From NCBI GenBank assembly GCA_027036915.1, contig JALWCD010000094.1, positions 1 to 10,808 on the forward strand: 10,808 nucleotides of DNA. Reading direction: 5' to 3'. Numbering within the stretch: the stretch's first letter is position 1; every line of letters begins with the position of its first letter. Of this stretch, positions 1-10,808 are shown one piece after another. This DNA comes from Thermodesulfatator sp. GTDB lineage: Bacteria > Desulfobacterota > Thermodesulfobacteria > Thermodesulfobacteriales > Thermodesulfobacteriaceae. Below the pieces are notes generated by a model. It was not told the DNA's origin, did not search any database, and worked only from the letters and a program-made list of their open reading frames with translations. The position numbers were made by a program, and so were the translations under genes.

Positions 1-2
1 GT

Positions 3-899
3 ATGCTCTGGTTCTGGCTGGCCCTTTCAGCCGCTTTTTTTGTAGCCCTGGGCGACGCCCTGAACAAGAGATTCTTCGCCCGGGACGGCATGGTCCTCAT
101 GGCCATCGCCCGCACCCTGGGGCCCTTACCGTTTCTGGTGGTTTTCTTACTGGCAAGTTTTCCTCCGGAGGAGTTCATGGCCCGCACCCTCTCCGCCCTT
201 CAAAATCCGGCCTTTCTCAAGACCGTGGGCCTGCTGCTGCCGCTTGAGACCCTGGCCCTCCTCCTTTACATGGAAGCCATCCGCATCTCTCCCCTTTCGC
301 TCACCCTGCCGCTTCTTTCCTTCACCCCGGTCTTTATCATCCTCACCGGCTACCTGATTCTGGGGGAGAGGCCTTCCTGGCAGGGGGTAAGCGGTATCCT
401 CCTGGTGGTGGCCGGAGGTTATCTTCTGCACTGGCCTGCGATCTCCCAGGGCCTCCTGGCCCCCTTTCGGGCCCTTTTCCGGAAAAAAGGCTCCCTCCTC
501 ATGTTAGGGGTGGCCCTGATCTATGCCGTAACCTCCGTGCTGGGGAAAAAGGCCATCCTCCTTTCGGAGCCTCTCTGGTTCGCCGGCACCTATTTCGTTA
601 TTCTGGGGCTTTTCGTGCCCTCCGTTCTGGGGCTCTTTTTCAGGCCCCCTCTCGGCCGTTTCCTGCGTCTCCGTCCCCACGGGATCCTCCTCTTGGGGTT
701 GACCCAGGCCCTCATGGTGATCGCCCACATGAAGGCCATCAGTCTGGCCCCGGCCGCCTACATGATCGCGGTCAAACGGACAAGCATCCTCTTCGGTATC
801 CTTTTCGGAGGGGCCTTCTTCAGGGAGACGCACCTCCGGGTGCGTTTACTGGCCGCCTCCGTCATGCTGGCCGGTGTGGCACTTCTGGCTACGGCTTAA
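3..899 (+). CDS. DMT-superfamily (EamA-type) permease
   Basis: This is a 298-residue, very hydrophobic inner-membrane protein made of two EamA-like repeats, the usual drug/metabolite transporter layout of about 10 helices. Likely helices lie near residues 2-20, 31-52, 71-90, 97-120, 128-143, 163-181, 190-213, 226-244, 252-273 and 280-297. The first repeat ends with the characteristic segment around residues 91-142 (EAIRIS, then LGERPSWQG), where a Glu-bearing loop follows helix 4. The second repeat carries an equivalent FFRETHLR loop near 272-279. Family members export or import small metabolites such as amino acids; the substrate cannot be told from sequence. The ATG two bases into the window gives a normal family N-terminus, but any upstream start or operon partner lies outside. 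It is convergent with the glycosylase gene, with 9 bp between the stop codons and no clear terminator. Confidence 0.85.
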   Translation: MLWFWLALSAAFFVALGDALNKRFFARDGMVLMAIARTLGPLPFLVVFLLASFPPEEFMARTLSALQNPAFLKTVGLLLPLETLALLLYMEAIRISPLSLTLPLLSFTPVFIILTGYLILGERPSWQGVSGILLVVAGGYLLHWPAISQGLLAPFRALFRKKGSLLMLGVALIYAVTSVLGKKAILLSEPLWFAGTYFVILGLFVPSVLGLFFRPPLGRFLRLRPHGILLLGLTQALMVIAHMKAISLAPAAYMIAVKRTSILFGILFGGAFFRETHLRVRLLAASVMLAGVALLATA

Positions 900-908
900 A
901 GCGGGGCT

Positions 909-1568
909 CTATGCCTGAAGATCCCGAAGCGGGCAGGGGGCCTCGCAGCGGAGCTTTCTGGCCCGGCAGAAGTGTTTCCCGCAGGCCACCAGCAGGGCGT
1001 GATATTCGTTGAAGAGTTCAACCTCCAAAGGCATATTTTCCATGAAAAGTTCCTGGATCTCGTGGTAATCGGCCTCCTCGGTCACCAGTCCGTGGCGCAG
1101 GAGTATGCGCCGGGTGTAGGCGTCCACCACGAAGACCGGACGCTCCAGGGCGTAAAGCAGTATGCTGTCCGCGGTCTCGGGCCCGATTCCCGGAAGACTC
1201 AAAAGCTCCCGGCGGAGTTCCTCGGTCTCCTTTTCGGAAAGGTTTTCGAGCCCTCCCCCGTAATTTTCCACCAGCCAGCGCACGAAGGCCTTAAGCCTCC
1301 GGGCCTTGACCCGAAAGTACCCCGCGGGCCGGATCAGCGCGGCCAGAAGATCTTCCGGAAGTTCGTAGAGGACCTGCGGGGAGAGCAGGTCCCGGGCCTT
1401 AAGATTCTCGATGGCCCTTTCCACGTTGCGCCAGTTGGTGTTCTGGGTGAGGATGGCCCCCACGCAGACCTCAAAGGGGGTCTCCGCAGGCCACCAGTGC
1501 TGGGGGCCGAAGTGCCGGTAGAGGCGGCGGTAAATCTCCTCCAGGATTCCGGCGTAGTAACTACTCAT
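909..1568 (-). CDS. Endonuclease III/MagIII-like DNA base-excision glycosylase
   Basis: A 219-residue HhH-GPD superfamily protein, expected to flip out and excise damaged bases. The helix-hairpin-helix is at residues 125-141 (LPGIGPETAD) and the catalytic Asp is D149 (VVDAY). At the position of the lyase Lys of endonuclease III (GRKTAN) there is Glu131, as I recall for Helicobacter MagIII (GKESAD). This argues for a monofunctional glycosylase without AP-lyase activity, possibly acting on alkylated purines. The N-terminal WWP and LTQNT segments (residues 25-27 and 40-44) also fit MagIII-like proteins. Four C-terminal cysteines (C196, C201, C208, C212) suggest an iron-sulfur site, but the spacing (x4, x6, x3) differs from the classical x6-x2-x5. 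The ATG at 1566-1568 is chosen because it begins the family-like sequence and overlaps the upstream fusion gene's stop by 8 nt (ATGAGTAG), implying translational coupling. An in-frame ATG 43 codons upstream would overlap that gene deeply and is rejected. Confidence 0.85.
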   Translation of the reverse strand: MSSYYAGILEEIYRRLYRHFGPQHWWPAETPFEVCVGAILTQNTNWRNVERAIENLKARDLLSPQVLYELPEDLLAALIRPAGYFRVKARRLKAFVRWLVENYGGGLENLSEKETEELRRELLSLPGIGPETADSILLYALERPVFVVDAYTRRILLRHGLVTEEADYHEIQELFMENMPLEVELFNEYHALLVACGKHFCRARKLRCEAPCPLRDLQA

Positions 1569-3897
1569 CCGACAGACGGAAAGCTCTCGAACCGCGCGGG
1601 GTGTCCACCACCAGATAACCCTGTCGCCGAAGTTCCTCACGCAGGCGATCGGCCTTCTCGTAGGCCCCAGTCTTCCGAGCGGCTTCCCTTTCCGCAAGGA
1701 TCCTGGCGATCTCTTCGTCCCGGGCCTCTTCCGGAAAGACCAGCACCTCTAGGATCCGGTTTACATTCTCCAGAGTCGAAAGGGCCTCTTCCCTGAGCGT
1801 CGGCGGAAGCCCCCTTTCCACCACCAAGGGATACCAGCGGCGCGAGAAACGAAAGAGCTCGGCCAGCACCTGGGGCACGTTAAGATCGTCGTTCATGGCG
1901 GCTTCAAAGCCCTCGGTGAGGGCCCTCAGAGCCTCCTCGGCCTCCTCGGATGGAGGGCCTTCCGGGGCGGTCCGCAGAAGGGCGCAGAAAAGGATCAGGT
2001 TCGAGAGGGCCTTCCGGGCCTCGGAGAGGGCCTGCCAGCTGAAGTTGAGGGGCTTGCGATAATGGGTACGCAGGAGGAAAAAGCGTATCTCACGGCCGGA
2101 AAAACCGGCCCGGCGCAGATCCGCCAGGGTAACCTCGTTTCCGGCCGAAACCGACATCTTGCGCCCTTCAACCAGGACCAGGGCCGAGTGTAACCAGTAG
2201 CGGCAGAGTTCCTGGCCCGTGAGGGCCTTGGCAATGGCCCGTTCGTTTTCGTGATGCGGAAAAAGGAGATCGGTGCCGCTGGTGTGAATGTCGAAGGTCT
2301 CACCGAGATATTTGAAGGCCAGGGCCGCACACTGGATGTGCCAGCCGGGACGGACCTTACCCCATTCGGTATCCACGAAATAGCCCTGTTTGAGCTCCTG
2401 AATGGTGACCCTCTTGAAAAGGGTAAAGTCGGCCGGGGCGTCCTTTTCGTATTCGTCCAGATCCACCGTGGCTCCGGGTTTGAGACCTGCGGGATCCACA
2501 CCGGAAAGGCGTCCGTAATCCGGAAGCTTGGAGACGTCAAAATAGACCGAGGAATACTTCTCGTAGGCCAGGCCCTTTTCCAGGAGTCGGCGGGTAAGGG
2601 CCAGCATGTCCTCCAGGTGTTCGCTCACCCGGGGATAGTGAGTGGCCGGTTTTATCCGGAGAAAGGCCAGGTCTTCGAAAAACTCCCGGGCCAGTTCCTC
2701 AGTAAGTTCCCTGAGGGGTCGGCCGGAGGCCTCCGCCGCGGCCAGGGTCTTGTCGTCGAAATCGGTAAGATTGACCACGTGCGTGACCTCGAACCCCCGG
2801 GCCTCCAGCCAGCGGCGCAGAACGTCCGCGGTAAGCATCCTCCGGTAAAGTCCGAGGTGTGGCCGACGGTTGAGGGTGGGGCCACAGGTGTAGATACGGA
2901 CCTTTCCGGCCTCCAGAGGCTCGAAGACCTCCTTTTTGCCGGTGAGGGTGTTGGTAATCCGGAAATCCTCCCGCCTGGGAGGCGCGGGAAAGACCCAGAG
3001 GGGCGTAGAGAGGTAACGTTCCCCGCCGTCGGGGAAGATGACCACGATGAGGCCCTGCTCTATCTCCCGGGCCACCCTGAGCGCCCCGGCCAGGGCCGCC
3101 CCGGAACTCATGCCGACAAAAATCCCTTCCTCCCGGGCCAGCCGTCGGGCCAGCTCATAGGCTTCCTCATCGTCCACGTTGACCACCGCATGCGGTAGCT
3201 TGCGGTCGTAAATCCCCGGGGGATAGGACTCTTTCATGTTCTTGAGCCCCTGAATTTTGTGCCCCGGAACAGGCTCCACCCCGATGACCCTCACGCCGGG
3301 GGCCTTTTCCCGAAAATAGCGGGCCAGCCCCATGAGCGTCCCGGTGGTGCCCATGGAGGCCACCACATGCGTAACCCGGCCCTCGGTGTCCCGCCAGATC
3401 TCCGGACCGGTGGTCCGATAATGCATCTGCCAGTTGGCCGGATTGTTGAACTGATCGGGATTGTAATATTTGTCCGGATATCGGCGTACCAGTTCGTAGA
3501 TGGCCTCGATGGCCCCGTCGGTGCTCTTTTCCGCGGGCGTGAGCAGGATCTCCGCCCCGTAGGCCTGCATGATCTTACGCCGTTCAACGGAGGCCGACTC
3601 CGGCATGGCGATAAGACACCGGTAGCCCTTGACCGCACAGACCATGGCCAGCCCGATACCCGTGTTGCCGCTTGAGGCCTCGGCCACGATCTTTCCGGGG
3701 GTAAGAAGACCCTTCTCCTCGGCGTCCTCTATCATGGAAAGAGCAATCCGATCCTTGACCGACCCCCCGGGATTGAAGCTTTCCAGTTTGGCCCAGATCT
3801 CCACCCCGGGTTTGACCCTTATCCGCCGGAGCTTGACCAGAGGGGTGTTACCGATGAGGGCCAGTATATGCGGCTGGGCTTTGCGAAAAGGTTCCAT
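1561..3897 (-). CDS. Fusion: CysM-type cysteine synthase + cysteinyl-tRNA synthetase-like protein
   Basis: One uninterrupted 778-codon frame. Residues 1-303 form a fold-type II PLP cysteine synthase that makes cysteine from an activated serine plus sulfide: PLP Lys K48 (GGSVKDR), substrate loop SSGNTG 75-80, phosphate loop GTTGT 183-187, C-terminal FPDGGERYLSTP. The PEIW and GTTGT segments favour CysM over CysK. Residues 217-221 (GLKNM) sit where, as I recall, mycobacterial CysM has the O-phosphoserine-binding Arg; donor specificity is open. Residues about 308-778 form a full-length class I CysRS-like module. CGPT is at 338-341. Zinc ligands C338, C523, H548 and E552 match E. coli C28, C209, H234 and E238 in spacing. 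TDFDDK is at 378-383, a DALR-type helical region carries MNDDLNVP at 668-675, and a C-terminal tail is present. Signature motifs are atypical: HLGL (347-350) for HIGH, and KMSVS (580-584) for KMSKS. The start has no obvious Shine-Dalgarno. It overlaps the glycosylase gene downstream. Whether the module charges tRNA-Cys is inferred, not shown. Confidence 0.92.
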   Translation of the reverse strand: MEPFRKAQPHILALIGNTPLVKLRRIRVKPGVEIWAKLESFNPGGSVKDRIALSMIEDAEEKGLLTPGKIVAEASSGNTGIGLAMVCAVKGYRCLIAMPESASVERRKIMQAYGAEILLTPAEKSTDGAIEAIYELVRRYPDKYYNPDQFNNPANWQMHYRTTGPEIWRDTEGRVTHVVASMGTTGTLMGLARYFREKAPGVRVIGVEPVPGHKIQGLKNMKESYPPGIYDRKLPHAVVNVDDEEAYELARRLAREEGIFVGMSSGAALAGALRVAREIEQGLIVVIFPDGGERYLSTPLWVFPAPPRREDFRITNTLTGKKEVFEPLEAGKVRIYTCGPTLNRRPHLGLYRRMLTADVLRRWLEARGFEVTHVVNLTDFDDKTLAAAEASGRPLRELTEELAREFFEDLAFLRIKPATHYPRVSEHLEDMLALTRRLLEKGLAYEKYSSVYFDVSKLPDYGRLSGVDPAGLKPGATVDLDEYEKDAPADFTLFKRVTIQELKQGYFVDTEWGKVRPGWHIQCAALAFKYLGETFDIHTSGTDLLFPHHENERAIAKALTGQELCRYWLHSALVLVEGRKMSVSAGNEVTLADLRRAGFSGREIRFFLLRTHYRKPLNFSWQALSEARKALSNLILFCALLRTAPEGPPSEEAEEALRALTEGFEAAMNDDLNVPQVLAELFRFSRRWYPLVVERGLPPTLREEALSTLENVNRILEVLVFPEEARDEEIARILAEREAARKTGAYEKADRLREELRRQGYLVVDTPRGSRAFRLSDE

Positions 3898-3907
3898 GTT
3901 TTAAAAT
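3881..3907 (+). promoter_or_regulatory. Candidate sigma70 promoter for the L,D-transpeptidase gene
   Basis: A TAAAAT hexamer at 3902-3907 matches the -10 consensus at five of six positions. TTGCGA at 3881-3886 is a weak -35, with a short 15-bp spacer. Initiation 7-8 bases past the -10 would fall almost on the ATG at 3915, giving a leaderless or near-leaderless mRNA. This agrees with the absence of a Shine-Dalgarno sequence there. The -35 lies inside the 5' end of the divergent fusion gene. Motif match only. Confidence 0.3.
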
Positions 3908-3914
3908 TTCTAAC

Positions 3915-4814
3915 ATGAAAATCTTCATCCGCCTACTGGCAGCCTTAATCCTCCTCTGTCCCCGCGGAGTCTTCGGGCTCGACCGTTTCGTGGTCTCCGA
4001 GGGCCAGAGCGTTTTCGGAGAAATCTTCTACCACACCCTCTCGGCCAACGAAACACTCCTGGACGTGGCCCGGGCCTACGACCAGGGTTACAACCAGATC
4101 GTCCTGGCCAACCCCGGGCTCGATCCCTGGCTCCCCCCGGAGGGCCATCCGGTCCTCATCCCCAAAAAATTTGTTCTTCCGGAAGGACCCCATACCGGGA
4201 TCCTGATCAACCTTCCGGAGATGCGGCTTTATTATTTTCGAACCGAAGGACGGTCTCTCACGGTCTATACCGCCCCCATAGGGGTCGGGACCGAGGGTAA
4301 GCTCACCACCGAAGGGGTCTACACCGTCTACCGCAAAAAGGAACGCCCCTACTGGCACGTGCCTCCCTCCATTCGCGAGGAAGACCCCAGCCTTCCGGAG
4401 GTGGTGCCTCCGGGCCCGGAAAACCCCCTGGGGAATTACGCCCTTTATCTCTCGCGCGGGGCCTATGCCATCCACGGCACCAATAAACCCTGGGGCATCG
4501 GCCGTCGGGTAAGCCACGGTTGCATCCGACTCTACCCGGAAGACATCGAAGCCCTTTTTCCCCTTGTGCCGGTGGGCACACCGGTAAGGGTGCTGTATCA
4601 ACCGGTCAAACTGGGTTTAAAAGGAGACCGGGTCTATCTCCAGGTTTTTCCGGACATTGAAGGAAGAGTCTCCGAGCCCATGCTTCAGGTTATAAAAATG
4701 GCTTCCCGGCTTGAAAGAGAGACCGGTTACAACATCTCTTTAGATCTCTTTCGGGTAAGAAAGGCCTTAAAAAATCCTAACGGGGTCCCTCAGGTTGTAG
4801 GGCGCGTAAAGTGA
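3915..4814 (+). CDS. Secreted L,D-transpeptidase with LysM-like and YkuD domains (ErfK/YbiS type)
   Basis: A 299-residue periplasmic protein that should cross-link peptidoglycan (3-3 bonds) or attach proteins to it through a Cys acyl-enzyme. A signal peptide spans residues 1-21 (KIF-R start, hydrophobic core, cleavage after VFG). A LysM-like murein-binding segment covers about 39-86, with LANPGLD and the VLIPKKF end. The YkuD domain covers about 94-229 and contains H187 in AIHGT, then SHGC with catalytic C203 and R205. The tail (230-299) resembles the C-terminal extension of the E. coli ErfK/YbiS group, whose members include the enzymes that link Lpp to murein. The ATG is supported by the signal peptide directly after it. 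It diverges from the CysM-CysRS gene with 17 bp between starts and no ribosome binding site. It converges on a lipoprotein gene with a Lys terminus, a possible substrate. Exact reaction (3-3 linking or anchoring) is inferred. Confidence 0.92.
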   Translation: MKIFIRLLAALILLCPRGVFGLDRFVVSEGQSVFGEIFYHTLSANETLLDVARAYDQGYNQIVLANPGLDPWLPPEGHPVLIPKKFVLPEGPHTGILINLPEMRLYYFRTEGRSLTVYTAPIGVGTEGKLTTEGVYTVYRKKERPYWHVPPSIREEDPSLPEVVPPGPENPLGNYALYLSRGAYAIHGTNKPWGIGRRVSHGCIRLYPEDIEALFPLVPVGTPVRVLYQPVKLGLKGDRVYLQVFPDIEGRVSEPMLQVIKMASRLERETGYNISLDLFRVRKALKNPNGVPQVVGRVK

Positions 4815-4825
4815 GAGGGACCCCG
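4769..4825 (-). terminator. Intrinsic terminator for the lipoprotein gene, inside the 3' end of the transpeptidase gene
   Basis: A perfect 11-bp inverted repeat (CGGGGTCCCTC at 4781-4791, GAGGGACCCCG at 4815-4825) encloses a 23-nt loop. Read on the minus strand, it is followed after 6 nt by six T residues (complement of 4769-4774), as expected 9 bp past the lipoprotein stop codon. Read on the plus strand, the following sequence has only scattered Ts, so any effect on the transpeptidase transcript is probably weaker. The left arm lies in the last codons of the transpeptidase gene. Confidence 0.6.
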
Positions 4826-4833
4826 AAGGAGTT

Positions 4834-5166
4834 CTATTTACGCAGGGATTTTTCAAAGATCCTTTCCATCTTGGCCGCAGCCGCACTGGCCTTTTCCGCA
4901 GCCTGAGCCGCACGGGTGGCGGCGGCATCGGCCCGCTGGGCCGCCAGGGCCGCCTGTCTGGCCGCGGCCTCGATACGAGCCAGCTCGGCCTCCACCTGAG
5001 CCTGGGCCTTCTTAGCCTCCTCGGCCGCCGCCTGGGCCTGTTTCGAGGCTTCGATGGCCTGCTGAAGCAGGGCCTTATCTTCCTTGCTCAGGCCACATCC
5101 TACGGGTACGACCAGCATGGAGGCCAGGCCTACCATGACCAGACCTTTCTTGAGCCTTTCCAGCAT
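4834..5166 (-). CDS. Lpp/OprI-like alanine-zipper outer-membrane lipoprotein
   Basis: A 110-residue small lipoprotein. Residues 1-23 are a lipoprotein signal (KK, hydrophobic core, VPVGC), with Cys24 as the predicted lipidated residue; Pro at -3 makes the lipobox imperfect. Residues about 30-104 are an almost pure Ala/Lys/Glu/Gln/Arg helix with heptad-like spacing, the alanine-zipper coiled coil of murein lipoproteins. The C-terminus, FEKSLRK, closely resembles the Pseudomonas OprI end (LEKASRK) and the YRK end of E. coli Lpp, whose terminal Lys is joined to murein by L,D-transpeptidases. It is longer than Lpp (78-residue precursor) and OprI, so the coil would reach further. A strong Shine-Dalgarno (AGGAGG, complement of 5175-5180) lies 8 nt before the ATG. 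The gene has its own promoter and a terminator just downstream, fitting an abundant structural protein. Murein linkage is inferred. Confidence 0.82.
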   Translation of the reverse strand: MLERLKKGLVMVGLASMLVVPVGCGLSKEDKALLQQAIEASKQAQAAAEEAKKAQAQVEAELARIEAAARQAALAAQRADAAATRAAQAAEKASAAAAKMERIFEKSLRK

Positions 5167-5201
5167 TCCAGACCCCTCCTTTTTCCGGGATTATCTTTTA
5201 A

Positions 5202-5230
5202 ATAACCTCACAAATTTCTCCGAATGTCAA
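5202..5230 (-). promoter_or_regulatory. Promoter for the lipoprotein gene, embedded in the ispD 3' end
   Basis: On the minus strand there is a perfect -35 TTGACA (complement of 5225-5230). A 17-bp spacer follows, then GGTTAT (complement of 5202-5207), which matches the -10 only 3 of 6 but is preceded by TGA, an extended -10 feature. The -35 lies in the last codons of ispD, so the lipoprotein could be transcribed apart from the operon. An alternative -10, GATAAT, occurs 12 bp further down without a matched -35. Confidence 0.45.
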
Positions 5231-5900
5231 GGGTCAAAAGGACCTCGGCCAGCTTTAAATCCTCGGGATAGGTGATCTTGAAATTCAGGGGATCTCCGGG
5301 AACCACGCAGACCGGGAAACCCGCGGCCTCAAGAAGAGCGGCCTCGTCCGTAAATTCACGCTCTCCGGCCTTTCGATAGGCCTCCTCAAGCCAGGCCCTG
5401 CGGGCCCCCTGAGGGGTCTGGGCCAGCCAGAGCCCCTCCCGGGGGATGGTTCTTTCGACCCGGCCGGATCTTACCAGCTTGACCGTATCCCTCACCGGAA
5501 CCGCACAAAGGGCTGCCCCTTCCCGCTCCAGAGTCCTGAGAAGTTGCGAAACCAGAGTATGCGAGACCAGGGGCCTTGCGGCGTCGTGGACCAGAACCAG
5601 TTCCACCCCGGGAGAAAGATTTTCCAGGGCGCGTTTTACCGAGGCCTGCCTGGTGTTCCCCCCGGAAACCACCCTGGCCACCTTTCGAAAACCCCGACGT
5701 CTGAGGGAGGAGGCCACCTCTTCTTCCCAGCCCGGGGGGACCGCGATGACGATCTCCGAGATACCGGGATGAGACTCGAAGACCGAAAGGGTATGGATGA
5801 AAACCGGCGCCCCGGCAAGTTTCAGGAACTGCTTGGGGATCTCGCTTCCCACCCGTTCTCCCCGGCCGGCCGCGGCCAGGATCACACCGGTCTTAACCAT
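5208..5900 (-). CDS. ispD: 2-C-methyl-D-erythritol 4-phosphate cytidylyltransferase
   Basis: A 230-residue cytosolic enzyme of the MEP isoprenoid pathway, joining MEP and CTP to give CDP-methylerythritol. The nucleotide-binding signature LAAAGRGERVG is at residues 8-18, with R13 and K23 (IPKQF) as the catalytic pair. VHDAARPLV is at 104-112, TPQ at 162-164, the metal-site region TDEAALLE at 184-191, and NFKIT with the closing YPEDL at 206-215. Length and motif order are normal for the family. The ATG overlaps the end of the endonuclease V gene by 8 nt (ATGGTTAA), so translation is probably coupled. Its pathway partner ispF lies about 3.3 kb away on the other strand, rather than adjacent or fused as in many genomes. 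Confidence 0.96.
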   Translation of the reverse strand: MVKTGVILAAAGRGERVGSEIPKQFLKLAGAPVFIHTLSVFESHPGISEIVIAVPPGWEEEVASSLRRRGFRKVARVVSGGNTRQASVKRALENLSPGVELVLVHDAARPLVSHTLVSQLLRTLEREGAALCAVPVRDTVKLVRSGRVERTIPREGLWLAQTPQGARRAWLEEAYRKAGEREFTDEAALLEAAGFPVCVVPGDPLNFKITYPEDLKLAEVLLTLDIRRNL

Positions 5901-6543
5901 TTCTGGCCCTCGTGGCCCTCTGGTGTGCCCGTCTCAGAGGTTCGGGAAGACGATACCCCCGGCAGGCCTCAAGAACCAGGTCTACCGCCTCTTCCACCGT
6001 AAGACCGTACCCCGGGGAGACGTAAACCGGTTTTACCCCCCGCCTGGTCCTCACGGCGTATCCCACCACCTCTCGCCCGAGAAAGATGGGCGACCGGTCC
6101 CCGGGCCTTTCCCCGGGAGGCTCAAAGTCTCTGAGCAGGGGTTTTTTGGCACACCCTATGGTGGGGCGTCTGAGCTCCACCCCCAGATGGACCGCCAGGC
6201 CGCATTTCCGGGGATGTGCCAGCCCCTGACCATCCACGAAGATGAGATCCGGTTGCCGGCGCAAGCGTTTCAGGACCTCCTTTATAAGGGGAACCTCTCG
6301 GAAAGAGAGATAGCCCGGAAGATAGGGGAAGCTCACCGGAAGCTCAAGGGTCTTTTCTTCCAGGACCTCAAGTCCCGGCCAGCTCAGGACCACCACCGCG
6401 GGATACGCCCGGGCCCCTCCGGGCTCGTAGGCCACGTCCACCCCGGCCACCGTCCCGGGCCGGCGTCCCAGCGGGCCGTAAAAGGCCTGACGGGCTAGTT
6501 CCTCCTGAAGCTCCCGAAGCCGATGAAGTTCCGGGACGGCCAT
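5893..6543 (-). CDS. nfi: Endonuclease V (deoxyinosine 3' endonuclease)
   Basis: A 216-residue enzyme that nicks DNA at the second phosphodiester bond 3' of hypoxanthine, starting repair of deaminated adenine. All family signatures are visible: GVDVAY with D36, FPYLPG at 72-77 with the wedge Tyr Y74, FRE with E83, VDGQGLAHPR with D104, and IGCAKKP with K133. These align by constant offset with Thermotoga D43, Y80, E89, D110 and K139 as I recall them. The SPGYGLT segment at 176-182 is also typical. It should act on chromosomal DNA, and a high growth temperature would raise its substrate load (inference). The ATG lies 3 nt beyond the mpl stop (TAGGAGATG), and its 3' end overlaps ispD by 8 nt, placing it inside one operon. 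Confidence 0.95.
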   Translation of the reverse strand: MAVPELHRLRELQEELARQAFYGPLGRRPGTVAGVDVAYEPGGARAYPAVVVLSWPGLEVLEEKTLELPVSFPYLPGYLSFREVPLIKEVLKRLRRQPDLIFVDGQGLAHPRKCGLAVHLGVELRRPTIGCAKKPLLRDFEPPGERPGDRSPIFLGREVVGYAVRTRRGVKPVYVSPGYGLTVEEAVDLVLEACRGYRLPEPLRRAHQRATRARNG

Positions 6544-6546
6544 CTC

Positions 6547-7944
6547 CTAGAGTCCCCGTTCCTTCAGAGCCGAAATGAGCTTGGCGTAGATCTTCCCGAA
6601 AGAGGCGCTCGACATGAAAAGGATCAGATCCCCCGGAGCGGCCTCGGCGGCCATCGACTCCGCCAGATTCTCGTTCCCCACTTCACAGACCGTCCCCTTT
6701 CCGGAGACCTCCCGGGACAGAGCCGCAAGATCGAGCCTTTCCTCCTCCGGAATCTTATCCAGCCCCGGAGGGATTTTGAGCCACACCCGATCGGCCCCGG
6801 AGAGGACCTGCGCATAGGCCGCGGCAAAAACCTTCCGGCGGCTGGTATTGGTCCGGGGTTCAAAACAGAGAAGGACTCGAGAGGGGCGAAAAGCGGCCCT
6901 GAGGGCCGAAAGCGTCACCCCCACCGCCGTAGGATGATGAGCGAAATCGTCTATCACCAGGACCCTGTCCCGATAAAGGACCTCCTGACGTCGGGCCACC
7001 CCGGGAAAATTCGAGAGGGCTTCGCGGAGGCGTTCGGCCTCAAAGCCCAGCTCCCGCAGAAGGGCCCATACCCCCAGGGCGTTGAGGGCGTTGTGTTCCC
7101 CGAAAAGGGGAATATGAAAGGAGAACGGGCCTTCCGGGCTTCTGAGCCTTACGGTGGTGCCCTGGGGGGAAAATACCGCCTTTTCCAGGCGATAGGTGCT
7201 TTCCGGACTCCGGCCGTAGGAAATCTTCCAGGCGGAGGTTCTTTCGGCCACTTCTCTGGCTCCGGGATCATCCGCACAGAAGATAAGAAGGCCCTCCCGG
7301 GGCAGAAGGCTCACGAACCTCTCAAAGGCCTCCCGAAGGCTTTCATAATCCGGATAAATGTCCGCATGGTCATATTCCACCGAGGTAAGGATGGCGGCCC
7401 AGGGCCGGTAATGCCAGAACTTGGGACTTTTGTCGAAAAAGGCCGTGTCGTATTCATCTCCTTCGAGGACCACAAAGTCCCCTCTCCCCCAGCCGAAATT
7501 GCGTCCCCGGTCCCGTAGAAGCCCTCCCAGGAGATAAGCGGGCTCGGCCCCCAGACCTTCCAGGGCATGAGCCAGCAGGGCGGAGGTGGTGGTTTTGCCA
7601 TGGGTTCCGGCCACCACCAGAGATTTACGGCCGGGGAGTATCCATTCGGAAAGGGCCGAAGGCAAAGAGTAGAGAGGCAGCCCCAGGGCTCTGGCCTTCC
7701 GGACCTCGGGATTGTCCGCCCGCACGGCGTTCCCCACCACCACGGCTGCGGGAGAAAGTCTCTCCAGATTCCCGGGACGGTAACCGATCAGGGGCTCGAT
7801 ACCCAGGGCCCTTAACACCTGGCTGGCCGGGGGATAAGGCGGGGAGCCCTCGCTTCCCGTGACCTCAAAGCCCCGGGCCTTCAGAAGCCCGGCCAGGGCC
7901 GTCATGCCGATCCCGCCTATGCCGATGATATGGATCCGGGACAT
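6547..7944 (-). CDS. mpl: UDP-N-acetylmuramate:L-alanyl-gamma-D-glutamyl-meso-diaminopimelate ligase
   Basis: A 465-residue Mur ligase of murein recycling: it uses ATP to join the recovered tripeptide (L-Ala-D-Glu-mDAP) to UDP-MurNAc in the cytoplasm. Motifs: N-terminal UDP-binding IHIIGIGGIGM (4-14), TGS at 29-31, P-loop GTHGKTTT (113-120), GDEYDTAFFDK (162-172), EYDHADI (190-196), FGEHN (281-285), DDFAHHPT (332-339) and EPRTNT (362-367). EYDTAFFDK plus KFWHY marks it as Mpl rather than MurC, which usually has a DESD-type segment there. The ATG at 7942-7944 shares one base with the HDOD stop (TAATG). AGGAG lies 4 nt upstream, so translation is coupled; the frame stays open 39 codons further, but that sequence does not look like a Mur ligase and lies inside the HDOD gene. 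Confidence 0.94.
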   Translation of the reverse strand: MSRIHIIGIGGIGMTALAGLLKARGFEVTGSEGSPPYPPASQVLRALGIEPLIGYRPGNLERLSPAAVVVGNAVRADNPEVRKARALGLPLYSLPSALSEWILPGRKSLVVAGTHGKTTTSALLAHALEGLGAEPAYLLGGLLRDRGRNFGWGRGDFVVLEGDEYDTAFFDKSPKFWHYRPWAAILTSVEYDHADIYPDYESLREAFERFVSLLPREGLLIFCADDPGAREVAERTSAWKISYGRSPESTYRLEKAVFSPQGTTVRLRSPEGPFSFHIPLFGEHNALNALGVWALLRELGFEAERLREALSNFPGVARRQEVLYRDRVLVIDDFAHHPTAVGVTLSALRAAFRPSRVLLCFEPRTNTSRRKVFAAAYAQVLSGADRVWLKIPPGLDKIPEEERLDLAALSREVSGKGTVCEVGNENLAESMAAEAAPGDLILFMSSASFGKIYAKLISALKERGL

Positions 7945-9185
7945 TAAGCTCCTATGGTAAAGGCCTGATGGGCAAAGGCAAGGGCCTCGGCATAGATTTC
8001 CGGAAGAGAATTTTCGGTCGGAAGCCCCAGCCGGGGCAGCAACCTCTTCAGGGTTTCCCATTGTCCGCTCTCGTAAGCCCGGATCACTTCCAGCAGAGAG
8101 GTAAAGGGACCGGGCCGGCCAAGGAGGGCCGCTTTCACCTCCTCGTCCAGAGGAAGGTCCCGCAGTACGGTATGCATGGGCTGATCCAGCATGGCTTCCA
8201 GAAGGGAAAACAACCCCACGATGAAGGCGTCCTCGCTTCTTTCACCCAGGCCCGTCCGCTGGGCCAGAAGTTCCATGAACCGGGCGCGCACCATGGAATT
8301 AATGATAAGTTCCGGGGGACGATCCGCGGCCATGAGATGCAGGGCCACCAGGGAGGCCCACTTTCGCAGCCCCTGATAACCCAGAAGAACCGCCGCGTGC
8401 CGGATGGAATTTATTTTGGAGACAAAACCGAAAAAGGCCGAATTGATATACTTTAGAAGTTTGAGGGCCAGGGCGGGATCGGAATTGATGACCTTGATCA
8501 CTTCCTCCAGTTTGTCCTGAGCGGAATAGAGAAACTTGATCAGGCGAAGGTAGTGGGCCTTGACCACCGGAATCTCCTGAGTGGAAAGCACCTTGGGACG
8601 CGCAAAGAAAAAGCCCTGAAAATATTTGAACCCCAGGGCTCTGGCCCTCTCGAGTTCTTCCTGGGTCTCCACCTTCTCCGCCACCAGCCAGAAATCTCCC
8701 TTAAGTTCCTGACTCAAGTGCTCTATCTCCTCCGGAGGAGTGGCCTGAAAATCTATCTTCACGTAATCGGCGTAAGGCAGAAGAGAGACCAGGGGAGAAT
8801 GGGCCCTGAAATCGTCAAGGGCTATGGCATAGCCTTTCTTCTTGAGATTTCTCAAAATGGGAAGCAGTTCCTGCGGTGCGGAAATTCGTTCCAGGATCTC
8901 GATAACCAGCTTCTGAGGGCTGAAAAGATAAGGGATACCCGCTCGCAGGAGGTTGGCCGTGAAGTTCACAAAGACTTTTCGTCCGAAGGCAATATTTTCC
9001 AGACCGAAATGGAGAAAAGCGTGTACCAGGACCCGCTTGGAGGCCAGGTCTTCCTTGTGATCCTCGGGAACAAAGTAGTTTTCCAGATTCTCCCGGTAAA
9101 GCAATTCGTAGGCGTGTGTACGCCCCTTACGATCCAGAATGGGTTGGCGGGCTACATAAACCCGTTGAAAACTAAGAGCATTCAT
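7944..9185 (-). CDS. EAL-HDOD signalling protein, EAL half probably catalytically inactive
   Basis: A 413-residue cytoplasmic protein of the YuxH-like group. Residues about 7-200 form an EAL-type barrel: YVARQPI start, YELLYR (26-31) in place of YEALLR, VNFT (73-76), VIEILE (94-99), LDDF (123-126), VKID (142-145), AEKVET (169-174), and QGFFFARP (190-197). The active-site stretch after LDDF is RAHSP instead of GTGYS, so c-di-GMP hydrolysis is unlikely. Residues about 203-390 form an HDOD domain (INSDPALALKLLKYINSA, then IRHAAVLLGYQGLRKW), a non-catalytic HD-like fold seen in bacterial signalling proteins. It probably works by protein binding; partners are unknown. It is the first gene of the minus operon and is coupled to mpl by a TAATG overlap. 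The chosen ATG begins the family-typical N-terminus 62 bp from divergent ispF; its Shine-Dalgarno is weak. Confidence 0.9.
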   Translation of the reverse strand: MNALSFQRVYVARQPILDRKGRTHAYELLYRENLENYFVPEDHKEDLASKRVLVHAFLHFGLENIAFGRKVFVNFTANLLRAGIPYLFSPQKLVIEILERISAPQELLPILRNLKKKGYAIALDDFRAHSPLVSLLPYADYVKIDFQATPPEEIEHLSQELKGDFWLVAEKVETQEELERARALGFKYFQGFFFARPKVLSTQEIPVVKAHYLRLIKFLYSAQDKLEEVIKVINSDPALALKLLKYINSAFFGFVSKINSIRHAAVLLGYQGLRKWASLVALHLMAADRPPELIINSMVRARFMELLAQRTGLGERSEDAFIVGLFSLLEAMLDQPMHTVLRDLPLDEEVKAALLGRPGPFTSLLEVIRAYESGQWETLKRLLPRLGLPTENSLPEIYAEALAFAHQAFTIGA

Positions 9186-9208
9186 TCATCTCGCTCACGT
9201 GCTATAGT
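9181..9208 (+). promoter_or_regulatory. Weak candidate promoter for ispF-uvrC
   Basis: TATAGT at 9203-9208 matches the -10 consensus at five of six positions. The only -35 at a fair distance is TTCATT (9181-9186, 16-bp spacer), which is poor. AATAAT at 9214-9219 is an alternative -10 without a good -35. The AT-rich 62-bp gap must hold both divergent promoters, so some element here is likely, but the exact one is uncertain. Confidence 0.22.
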
Positions 9209-9211
9209 TAA

Positions 9212-9240
9212 AGAATAATTAAATTTGGTTTCAGAAGCAA
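9212..9240 (-). promoter_or_regulatory. Candidate sigma70 promoter for the HDOD-mpl-nfi-ispD operon
   Basis: On the minus strand, TTGCTT (complement of 9235-9240) and TATTCT (complement of 9212-9217) are separated by exactly 17 bp, each matching consensus at four of six positions. The HDOD ATG follows 26 nt below the -10. This is the only sizeable gap upstream of the four-gene operon, so it is the most likely start of its transcript. It would overlap any ispF promoter, which could link the two divergent units. Confidence 0.38.
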
Positions 9241-9247
9241 GAAACAC

Positions 9248-9724
9248 ATGCGCACCGGTCTGGGCTTCGATCTTCACCGCCTGGTCGAGGGACGAAGGCT
9301 TGTGCTTTGCGGCCTGGAGATCCCTTTCGAAAAGGGGCTCCTGGGGCATTCGGATGCGGACGTGGCCCTGCACGCCTTAACCGATGCCATTCTGGGAGCC
9401 GCCGGACTTCCGGATCTGGGCTCACTCTTTCCGGACACCGATCCGCGTTTTAAGGACGCCCCCAGCTCGCTCTTTCTCCGGGAGGCCCTCCGCCTGATCT
9501 CCGAGAAGGGGCTTTCAGTCCATCAGGTGGATCTGGTGCTGATCCTTGACCAACCCAAACTCGCCCCTTATCGGGAAAAATTACGGGAGAACCTGGCCCG
9601 TCTCCTGGGAATCCCCCCGGACCGGGTGGGTCTTAAGGCCAAGACCACCGAGGGGCTGGGCTTCGCGGGCGGCGAGGCCGTGGCCGCCTGGGCGGTGGCC
9701 GTACTGGCGGAAGATGGAGCTTAG
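9248..9724 (+). CDS. ispF: 2-C-methyl-D-erythritol 2,4-cyclodiphosphate synthase
   Basis: A 158-residue MEP-pathway enzyme, normally a homotrimer with an active site at each subunit interface. It cyclises CDP-methylerythritol 2-phosphate, releasing CMP. The divalent metal ligands D8, H10 (GFDLH) and H42 stand at the E. coli positions. The loop GHSDADVALHALTDAILGA covers 33-51, FPDTD is at 61-65, and the CDP-binding KAKTTEGLGF at 130-139. The length is normal and no residue is missing. The ATG starts the conserved N-terminus; the ribosome binding site is weak. Its last 11 nt overlap the start of uvrC, so the two are co-translated. It supplies the step two after IspD, which is encoded in the divergent operon. 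Confidence 0.96.
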   Translation: MRTGLGFDLHRLVEGRRLVLCGLEIPFEKGLLGHSDADVALHALTDAILGAAGLPDLGSLFPDTDPRFKDAPSSLFLREALRLISEKGLSVHQVDLVLILDQPKLAPYREKLRENLARLLGIPPDRVGLKAKTTEGLGFAGGEAVAAWAVAVLAEDGA

Positions 9725-10808
9725 CCCGGAAAGAATTCGCGGAATACCCGAGGCCCCGGGGGTGTATATCTTCCGGGACGGACGGGGGGCCGTACTTTAC
9801 GTGGGCAAGGCCAAGAATCTGCGACGGCGCCTGGCCTCCTATCTCACACCGGCCACCCCCAAGATCCGCAATCTTATCGCCCGGGCCGAGAAGCTCGAGA
9901 CCCTTATCACACGCAACGAAAAGGAAGCCCTGATCCTGGAGGCCAACCTTATCAAAAAACATCGCCCCCGCTACAATGTCCTCCTCCGGGACGACAAGGC
10001 CTATCCCCTGATCAGGATTTCACTGGCGGATAAGTTTCCGCGGCTTACCGTGGTGCGGCGCAAGCGTCGGGGGGATCGAGCCCTATACTTCGGCCCCTAC
10101 CCTTCCGCCGGAGCCGTACGGGAGACGGTCAAGATCCTCACGCGATTTTTCCCCCTGCGCCGATGCACGAACGCCGAAATGCGCCGGCGCACCCGGCCCT
10201 GTCTTTATCATCAGATCGGTAAGTGTCCGGCCCCCTGTGTGGGACTGATCAGCCCCGAGAGCTATCAGCGGATCGTGGATCAGGCGGTGGCCTTTCTGGA
10301 AGGACGGGGAGAGGCCCTCCTCCGGAAACTTCGGGAAGAGATGGAGGCCGCCGCCGAAAGACTCGAATTCGAGCGGGCCGCCAGACTGCGAGACCGCCTT
10401 CGGGCCCTGGAAAAGATCCTGGAGGCTCAGGCGGTGGTCCTCCCCGAGGAAAGGGATCTGGATCTCTTCGCCCTGGCCCGCCAAGGCGAGTTCGTCTCCG
10501 GAGCCGTGCTTTTCATAAGGAAAGGAAAACTCCTGGGCTACAAGCTCTTTCACCTCCGAGGGGTTCCCGAGGAAGACCCCTGGGCCCCCCTTCTCGAGCA
10601 GTTTTACGACGAGGGCAAGCTCATCCCGGAAACCGTGGTCCTGCCCGAGGAACCGGAGGAAAAGGAGCTTCTTGAAGATTGGCTCAGCGATCTGCGCGGG
10701 GAGGCGGTAAAAATTGCAAGACCGGAGGGCGAGGCCCTCCAGGGACTTTATGAAACCGCCCTTCGCAACGCCAGGGAAGCCCTGCGCTCGAGGCTCAGAG
10801 GGGAGCGG
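9714..10808 (+). CDS. uvrC: UvrABC excinuclease subunit C, N-terminal part (cut by window end)
   Basis: The frame is open for 365 codons to the last base of the window, so the gene is 3'-truncated here only by the boundary. UvrC makes both incisions in nucleotide excision repair with UvrB. The GIY-YIG nuclease domain (3' incision) covers about 14-93: GVYIF, LYVGKAKNLRRRL with Y29 to R37, E76 in ALILEANLIK, and YNVLLRDDKAYP. Four cysteines C151, C163, C171 and C175 have the 12-8-4 spacing of the E. coli iron-sulfur ligands (C154, C166, C174, C178). A UVR motif for UvrB binding spans about 206-235 (LEFERAARLRDRL). The start of the RNase H-like 5' nuclease region follows; its catalytic residues and the C-terminal HhH lie beyond the window. 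The ATG is inside the ispF end, an 11-nt overlap. Confidence 0.95.
   Translation, partial: MELSPERIRGIPEAPGVYIFRDGRGAVLYVGKAKNLRRRLASYLTPATPKIRNLIARAEKLETLITRNEKEALILEANLIKKHRPRYNVLLRDDKAYPLIRISLADKFPRLTVVRRKRRGDRALYFGPYPSAGAVRETVKILTRFFPLRRCTNAEMRRRTRPCLYHQIGKCPAPCVGLISPESYQRIVDQAVAFLEGRGEALLRKLREEMEAAAERLEFERAARLRDRLRALEKILEAQAVVLPEERDLDLFALARQGEFVSGAVLFIRKGKLLGYKLFHLRGVPEEDPWAPLLEQFYDEGKLIPETVVLPEEPEEKELLEDWLSDLRGEAVKIARPEGEALQGLYETALRNAREALRSRLRGER

Follow-up and report, generated by a model that had tools for sequence, protein, structure and literature searches.

A cysteine synthase fused to a cysteinyl-tRNA synthetase-derived domain that lacks the charging signature and may sense tRNA-Cys or cysteine

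The window analyzed here, a stretch of 10,808 nucleotides from Thermodesulfatator sp. (phylum Desulfobacterota; GenBank assembly GCA_027036915.1, contig JALWCD010000094.1, positions 1 to 10,808), carries on its minus strand a single open frame of 778 codons (1561–3897, ATG to TAG) in which a pyridoxal phosphate (PLP)-dependent cysteine synthase of the CysM type is joined to a module resembling cysteinyl-tRNA synthetase (CysRS). Residues 1 to 301 (2995–3897, minus strand, as for all features of the gene) form the CysM domain, or cysteine synthase B, to which the TIGR01138 cysM profile aligns over residues 11 to 300 with 398.7 bits against a curated cut-off of 394.2. The CysRS-like module spans residues 313 to 778 (1564–2961), where TIGR00435 cysS scores 365.3 over residues 313 to 773 (curated cut-off, 340). 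Pfam domains on the fusion are PALP (13–290), tRNA-synt_1e (325–628), DALR_2 (664–686), and CysS_C (727–766). An AlphaFold model made with 64 aligned fusions has a mean pLDDT of 89.7 and a pTM of 0.65, and Foldseek matched it to CysM (2bhs_A, TMt 0.94) and to CysRS (8qhp_A, TMt 0.93; 1u0b_B, the tRNA-Cys-bound form, TMt 0.84). The linker region, residues 302 to 312 (2962–2994), is defined by the profile limits and by low model confidence, which falls below 50 over residues 294 to 304. An intact CysM (K48, SSGNTG at residues 75–80) running in one 778-codon frame into a near full-length CysRS-like module was the core of the original prediction, and it holds, with both profiles above cut-off; the gap between the halves, put there at about 5 residues, is 12 residues between the two profile matches. 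No missed stop or frameshift is seen at the junction, as the same frame runs without an internal stop in 5/5 same-genus genomes searched; the junction is genuine, and an assembly or frameshift artefact is ruled out.

The CysM half was compared across 61 fusion genomes, with one fusion taken from each. The PLP lysine, K48 (3754–3756), is a lysine in 61/61 genomes, and S76, G77, N78, T79, G80, Q149, G183, T184, G186, and T187 are equally invariant, as are G217, K219, N220, E223, S264, D290, and Y295. Variable positions include S75 (S or T), T185 (T or S), K222 (57/61), and G292 (60/61). With the profile cut-off exceeded and the PLP lysine and PLP-binding loops (S76–G80 and G183/T184/G186/T187) in place, the protein belongs with CysM, and these residues make it nearly certain that this half is an active enzyme. 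K219 (3241–3243) aligns with R210 of Salmonella CysM and is a candidate contact for a phosphate or sulfonate group; going by alignment ranges only, it may parallel Arg220, which binds O-phosphoserine in the mycobacterial enzyme. A search of the open-access literature for residues governing O-phosphoserine specificity found nothing usable.

The state of the charging site was read from an alignment of E. coli CysRS, 30 separate CysRS, and 170 distinct fused sequences. The fused set comprised the 61 one-per-genome sequences, further loci, and database proteins longer than 740 residues (shorter ones were excluded), while the separate CysRS were the best 30 by similarity from the 60 fusion genomes that have one, i.e., from about half of them. 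In the window, both class I motifs are degenerate: HIGH reads HLGL (residues 347–350; 2848–2859) and KMSKS reads KMSVS (residues 580–584; 2146–2160), the second lysine being replaced by V583. Both HIGH histidines were found in 0/170 fused sequences as compared to 30/30 separate CysRS, the second KMSKS lysine (K269) in 1/170 versus 30/30, and the full signature of both histidines and both lysines in 0/170 versus 30/30; the first KMSKS lysine is retained in 152/170 fused sequences. Of the best 80 loci on named genome contigs, 67 are non-fusion CysRS, and 52 of these have Asn at the second HIGH histidine (HIGN or HVGN), 48 of them with an exact KMSKS; loss of H40 was accordingly rejected as proof of inactivity by itself. 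Because Asn is common at this position in non-fusion CysRS, the joint signature H37, H or N at 40, and K269 was adopted, and this looser signature was likewise absent (0/170 fused sequences, 0/61 one-per-genome). Taken as a CysRS, the module has the zinc ligands, the contacts to G34 of the tRNA, and a profile score above cut-off, and lacks HIGH and the second KMSKS lysine. In all likelihood it does not charge tRNA, judging by these motifs, contrary to the original prediction that the second half activates cysteine and charges tRNA-Cys with it. Identity of the CysRS-like half to the CysRS of the same genome is about 40%. P340, R353, and R496 are invariant in 61/61 fusion genomes and K503 in 60/61; these residues replace canonical CysRS residues and may mark contact with a new ligand or domain. 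A stand-alone CysRS-like protein with HIGN and RMAKR motifs was seen on a contig titled Bathyarchaeota (L136).

The anticodon-binding domain, identified by Pfam and alignment as CysS_C (residues 727–778; 1564–1719), keeps its tRNA contacts. In E. coli CysRS, R427 and D436 form hydrogen bonds at G34, W432 stacks, and R423 acts via water (PMC12684709; this and the other papers cited are drawn on from excerpts). Alignment places R737, R741, Y746, D750, R753, and D765 of the fusion at E. coli R423, R427, W432, D436, R439, and D451. The four G34-contact residues (counting K at 427 and every aromatic at 432 as retained) are retained in 169/170 fused sequences and 60/61 genomes, the miss being the broken frame of G054, and a six-residue set that adds R439 and D451 in 164/170 and 59/61. 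Both sets are present in 12/12 sequences that lack a zinc ligand. The 30 ordinary CysRS share 128 conserved positions, of which the 61 fused genomes retain 0.63 on average; the value is 0.96 for six anticodon-domain positions (0.3% of 20,000 random draws as high), 0.88 for seven zinc/cysteine positions (2.8% of 20,000 draws as high), and 0.35 for twelve ATP-side positions (HIGH, KMSKS, GGG loop, Y33, and D34; 0.4% of draws as low), in sets that were picked with the counts in view and with draws that disregard phylogeny and structure. Restricting the ATP side to seven HIGH/KMSKS positions gives a weaker depletion (0.44; 9.5% of draws as low), since many fusions retain H37, G39, and the first lysine. 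This residue retention argues that the fusion probably binds tRNA-Cys.

Most fusions also keep the pocket that holds zinc and cysteine in related enzymes. C338 (2884–2886) and C523 (2329–2331) are equivalent to the E. coli zinc ligands C28 and C209, and H548 and E552, within the motif HHENE (2242–2256), to H234 and E238. In the CysRS-related ligase MshC, zinc is contacted by C43, C231, and H256, while T46, T83, and G44 contact the amino group (PMC9736012). A pocket set made of the equivalents of these contacts, with W205 added by us, is fully intact in 151/170 fused sequences and 42/61 genomes, and the equivalents of the zinc ligands C28, C209, and H234 in 158/170 and 49/61.

An ordinary CysRS is encoded elsewhere in the genome from which the window derives (contig C91), and a separate CysRS, whole or in a few cases as fragments, was found in 60/61 fusion genomes and in 69/69 further ones (129/130 together). 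The exception, G036, a 98% complete draft, has the fusion only, with no separate CysRS found. Separate cysM and cysS genes in all close relatives, which the original prediction had named as a finding that would tell against it, are not seen; relatives have the fusion together with a separate CysRS. Extra CysRS-like frames of about 420 to 480 residues, 31 to 33% identical to CysRS and with matches that end before the anticodon domain, were observed at G158:C61, G274:C6, G277:C34, and G296:C32, and are possibly CysRS*, the paralog linked to selenocysteine codon reassignment.

The distribution of CysE bears on the route to cysteine. Searched for with TIGR01172 (E up to 1e-20), CysE was found in 28/61 fusion genomes as compared to 48/61 hand-picked genomes without the fusion (Fisher p = 0.0003, with relatedness ignored). 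The original prediction had remarked that the CysM half lacks a CysK-type tail for binding serine acetyltransferase, whereas it is the C terminus of CysE that enters the CysK active site. All 28 CysE-bearing fusion genomes have a separate cysteine synthase (one partial, G001). Of the 33 CysE-less ones, 32 yielded no clear cysteine synthase besides the fusion, G077 and G110 giving one weak 80-bit match each; in G009, a second cysteine synthase falls just below cut-off. Overall, 28 of the 61 have both CysE and a separate synthase (many such pairs are adjacent), 32 have neither, and 1 has the synthase only. Among the 32 are the single-contig genomes G010, G014, G032, G078, G130, and G054, as well as the genome of the window (91% complete). 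SerA is present in 19/20 tested genomes of the group in which neither CysE nor a second clear cysteine synthase was found. A tRNA-dependent SepRS/SepCysS route was rejected, as no SepRS exceeded the TIGR00470 cut-off in 20 fusion genomes; the 19 weak matches, in frames of 332 to 374 residues, are probably PheRS alpha. Since the fusion is the only recognizable cysteine synthase, and CysE was not found, in 32/61 genomes, use of O-phosphoserine, the natural alternative, is possible, and these absences tilt us slightly toward O-phosphoserine as the donor.

With the ATP signature lost and the residues for recognition of tRNA-Cys, and mostly also of cysteine, kept, the CysRS-derived domain is best read as a sensor. 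The PLP-dependent synthase would carry a domain that no longer activates cysteine, still recognizes tRNA-Cys via its anticodon domain, keeps the zinc/cysteine pocket in most lineages, and adjusts CysM activity to cellular cysteine or to the charging state of tRNA-Cys; for example, uncharged tRNA-Cys might stimulate CysM, or cysteine or Cys-tRNA-Cys might restrain it. Were O-phosphoserine the donor, the fusion would be the branch point to cysteine, where feedback control is expected; in about half of the fusion genomes sampled, this would be the step that commits the cell to making cysteine. There is precedent in HisZ, a HisRS paralog that has no adenylation activity and relays histidine feedback to HisG (PMC9437257), and in Gcn2, where uncharged tRNA binds a HisRS-like domain (PMC4335047); the fusion shares with them an aminoacyl-tRNA synthetase fold without the adenylation signature. 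On residue retention and these analogies, we give about an even chance to the reading that a CysRS domain no longer able to charge tRNA serves the attached cysteine synthase as a sensor of tRNA-Cys, of cysteine, or of both. Regulation of CysM by the domain is put at the same evenly balanced level, both its allosteric nature and its sign being predictions. A narrower and more tentative version is a tRNA-gated enzyme, in which the dead CysRS would dock the tRNA-Cys anticodon, its pocket would check the 3' end for cysteine, and the outcome would switch an O-phosphoserine-dependent synthase.

Several observations weigh against the sensor reading. Several of the genomes without CysE are incomplete assemblies (G007, 64%; G003, 89%; the genome of the window, 91%), and Campylobacter CysM uses O-acetylserine rather than O-phosphoserine (PMC9855970), so that the CysM type alone is no proof of O-phosphoserine use. 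At the charging site, an Asn at the second HIGH histidine occurs in CysRS of other phyla, and an altered class I HIGH motif is not always inactivating, IleRS2 being active with GXHH (PMC10485003). Residues of the anticodon domain could be retained for fold stability instead of tRNA binding. A zinc ligand is lost in 12/61 genomes and the pocket is changed in 19/61, so cysteine sensing cannot be universal in the family. Given the pTM of the model and its low-confidence linker, no interface between the CysM and CysRS-like domains is seen. A conserved operon partner was not found: the most frequent neighbor family adjoins the fusion at no more than 14 of the 59 loci compared (of 61; L038 and L055 were dropped because the frame finder missed the fusion). 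Pocket integrity, finally, shows no significant correlation with CysE absence, intact pockets occurring in 17 genomes with and 25 without CysE and changed pockets in 11 and 8, respectively (Fisher p = 0.27).

The last result bears most directly on a pure cysteine feedback sensor of the HisZ kind, in which the CysRS pocket binds cysteine via zinc and inhibits CysM while the anticodon domain is a structural remnant. Such a model would have predicted that pocket integrity tracks CysE absence, and it leaves the anticodon contacts better kept than the pocket, even where zinc ligands are lost. It draws support from the intact zinc and cysteine contacts of most fusions and from CysE, the usual cysteine-inhibited step, not being found in about half of the fusion genomes; we regard it as unlikely, though the best placed of the rivals. 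Alternatively, the dead CysRS may serve as a docking platform that binds tRNA-Cys only to keep the synthase close to this tRNA and to the true CysRS, so that local cysteine would rise without allostery. Retained anticodon contacts beside lost charging motifs, a low-confidence linker between well-modeled domains, and the presence of a separate CysRS are all consistent with docking, which nevertheless leaves the zinc/cysteine pocket of most lineages unexplained and whose benefit is made doubtful by fast diffusion of free cysteine. This explanation is less likely still.

A third possibility is a structural relic, the CysRS-derived domain only stabilizing or oligomerizing CysM. Mean pairwise identity is 0.450 among the CysRS halves, 0.615 among the CysM halves, and 0.556 among the 30 ordinary CysRS (from about half of the genomes), and this greater divergence of the CysRS halves, like the loss of zinc ligands in several clades, speaks for a relic. 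However, near-universal retention of the G34-contact residues and the gain of the near-invariant, fusion-specific residues P340, R353, R496, and K503 argue against it, and we consider it improbable, slightly more so than docking.

Channeling, as in the original prediction, would have a bifunctional enzyme make cysteine and charge tRNA-Cys with it. A near full-length CysRS module above the cysS cut-off, with zinc site and anticodon domain mostly retained, would fit, but the charging signature is missing from every fused sequence aligned and a separate CysRS, in some cases as fragments, accompanies the fusion in 129 of 130 genomes, G036 being the exception. Channeling into tRNA charging was rejected on these two grounds and is given very little credence. 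No better placed is an MshC-like ligase that would join CysM-made cysteine to a small amine to give a thiol. The cysteine pocket does resemble that of MshC, and MshC chains are among the Foldseek matches; however, of the MshC residues H55 (HIGH) and K289 (KMSKS), which contact the adenylate analog (PMC9736012), the H55 position is lost and only the K289 equivalent, K580, is kept, while the TIGR03447 equivalog profile reaches only 195.6 of the 485.1 required and aligns no further than residue 685, short of the anticodon domain. An MshC-type ligase was therefore set aside as the principal reading. Least credible of all is a persulfide synthase, in which the CysRS-like half would make cysteine persulfide with PLP as E. 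coli CysRS does, since that PLP-aided reaction needs the KIIK and KMSK lysines (PMC5660078) and the fusions have mostly lost them (K73 kept in 133/170, K76 in 25/170, K266 in 152/170, and K269 in 1/170).

Immediately downstream of the fusion lies an endonuclease III-like gene (HhH-GPD; 909–1568, minus strand), whose probable ATG start (1568–1566) overlaps the 3' end of the fusion by 8 bases, an arrangement that suggests translational coupling. A homologous endonuclease III-like family is the next same-strand gene in 11/59 loci compared. No riboswitch or T-box matched Rfam at gathering score within the window.

Homologs in related genomes, whose existence the original prediction had left open, are numerous. 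Both domains are present by Pfam, some only partially, in all 120 matches listed of the 7995 obtained in a protein search, and source names among the 120 include Thermosulfurimonas, Thermodesulfatator, Caldimicrobium, Thermodesulfobacterium, Thermosulfuriphilus, and Candidatus Desulfofervidaceae. Among 296 genomes of the phylum drawn at ≥90% completeness, at least 122 have a match extending into both halves, a lower bound because fusions split over contigs escape the count; the 122 include G286, cut at a contig end, and G054, with its broken frame, and exclude G104, which matches over the first 350 positions only. In G054, a single-contig genome, the fusion (G054:C1:2736757-2739044) is broken into two frames inside the CysRS half, which reflects either error or real decay. 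On named genome contigs, a complete fusion was found in 12 of the best 80 loci, with a 13th (L127) truncated where its contig begins; the titles of all 13 name Deltaproteobacteria, Desulfobacterales or relatives, or Caldimicrobium, which does not imply absence elsewhere.

A quick, unrooted tree was computed for 30 fused modules together with E. coli CysRS, 30 separate CysRS of fusion genomes, and 67 other CysRS. A branch with support 100 sets the fused modules apart from the rest, and a single origin is therefore likely. The fused modules adjoin CysRS of Acidobacteriota and other phyla, outside the CysRS of their own phylum, hinting that the synthetase was acquired rather than locally duplicated; L055 sits on a long branch in this tree, and 16 rows have unusual composition.

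Names, where present on the database matches listed, are mostly "cysteine--tRNA ligase" or "cysteinyl-tRNA synthetase," with some "cysteine synthase," and the TIGR00435 score above cut-off may be behind the first of these, which is common. If the module does not charge tRNA, the ligase and synthetase labels would be wrong for a widespread family. The second domain, which many sulfur-metabolizing bacteria carry on an otherwise normal cysteine synthase, looks more like a control unit sensing tRNA or cysteine than like a production line that passes cysteine on to tRNA charging, and in many genomes of the phylum the data point to a cysteine route without CysE. If the domain does read tRNA-Cys, a bacterial amino acid synthesis would be set directly by a tRNA pool at the protein level; to our knowledge, such control by tRNA has so far been described only through RNA, in the T-box, and in a kinase, Gcn2. 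The tRNA-gated version, if true, would do at the protein level and in a single polypeptide what the T-box does with RNA, would parallel Gcn2 in bacteria, and would be spread over roughly 40% of the genomes sampled from the phylum. No description of a CysM–CysRS fusion or its function was found in the open-access literature (subscription papers and preprints lay outside the search); the excerpted text of PMC9437257 names only CysRS* and MshC as functions of CysRS paralogs, and that of PMC2922099, on synthetase-like ligases, mentions no such fusion.

Compared with known systems, the N-terminal half shares with CysM of E. coli (2bhs) and Salmonella (2jc3) the fold, the PLP lysine, and the SGNTG and GT[T/S]GT loops; it differs in its C-terminal CysRS-derived domain, in the frequent lack of CysE in the genome, and in the segment GLKNMKES (217–224) with invariant K219, which is not seen in the Salmonella alignment. 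With bacterial CysRS, the C-terminal half has in common the fold, most zinc ligands, and the anticodon-binding residues, whereas its HIGH and KMSKS motifs are degenerate, it is joined to CysM, and a separate CysRS is present. Other CysRS relatives are more distant in design: MshC adenylates cysteine and its profile match stops short of the anticodon domain, and CysRS* of Desulfobacterales has no anticodon domain and charges SelC* (PMC9437257). CysRS* was rejected as an identity for the module, in which CysS_C is present at residues 727 to 766, and neither MshC nor CysRS* is described as fused to CysM in the excerpts of PMC9437257. The pattern is more reminiscent of HisZ, likewise a synthetase paralog without the adenylation signature placed on a biosynthetic enzyme for the same amino acid, although HisZ is a subunit acting with HisG, whereas the fusion domain is CysRS-derived, covalently joined, and retains its anticodon domain, and its regulatory role is a prediction. 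Gcn2 likewise joins a synthetase-like domain to an enzyme, and tRNA binding is predicted for the fusion too; Gcn2, however, is a eukaryotic kinase that is not specific for one tRNA (PMC4335047), whereas the fusion itself makes the amino acid and is predicted to be specific for tRNA-Cys.

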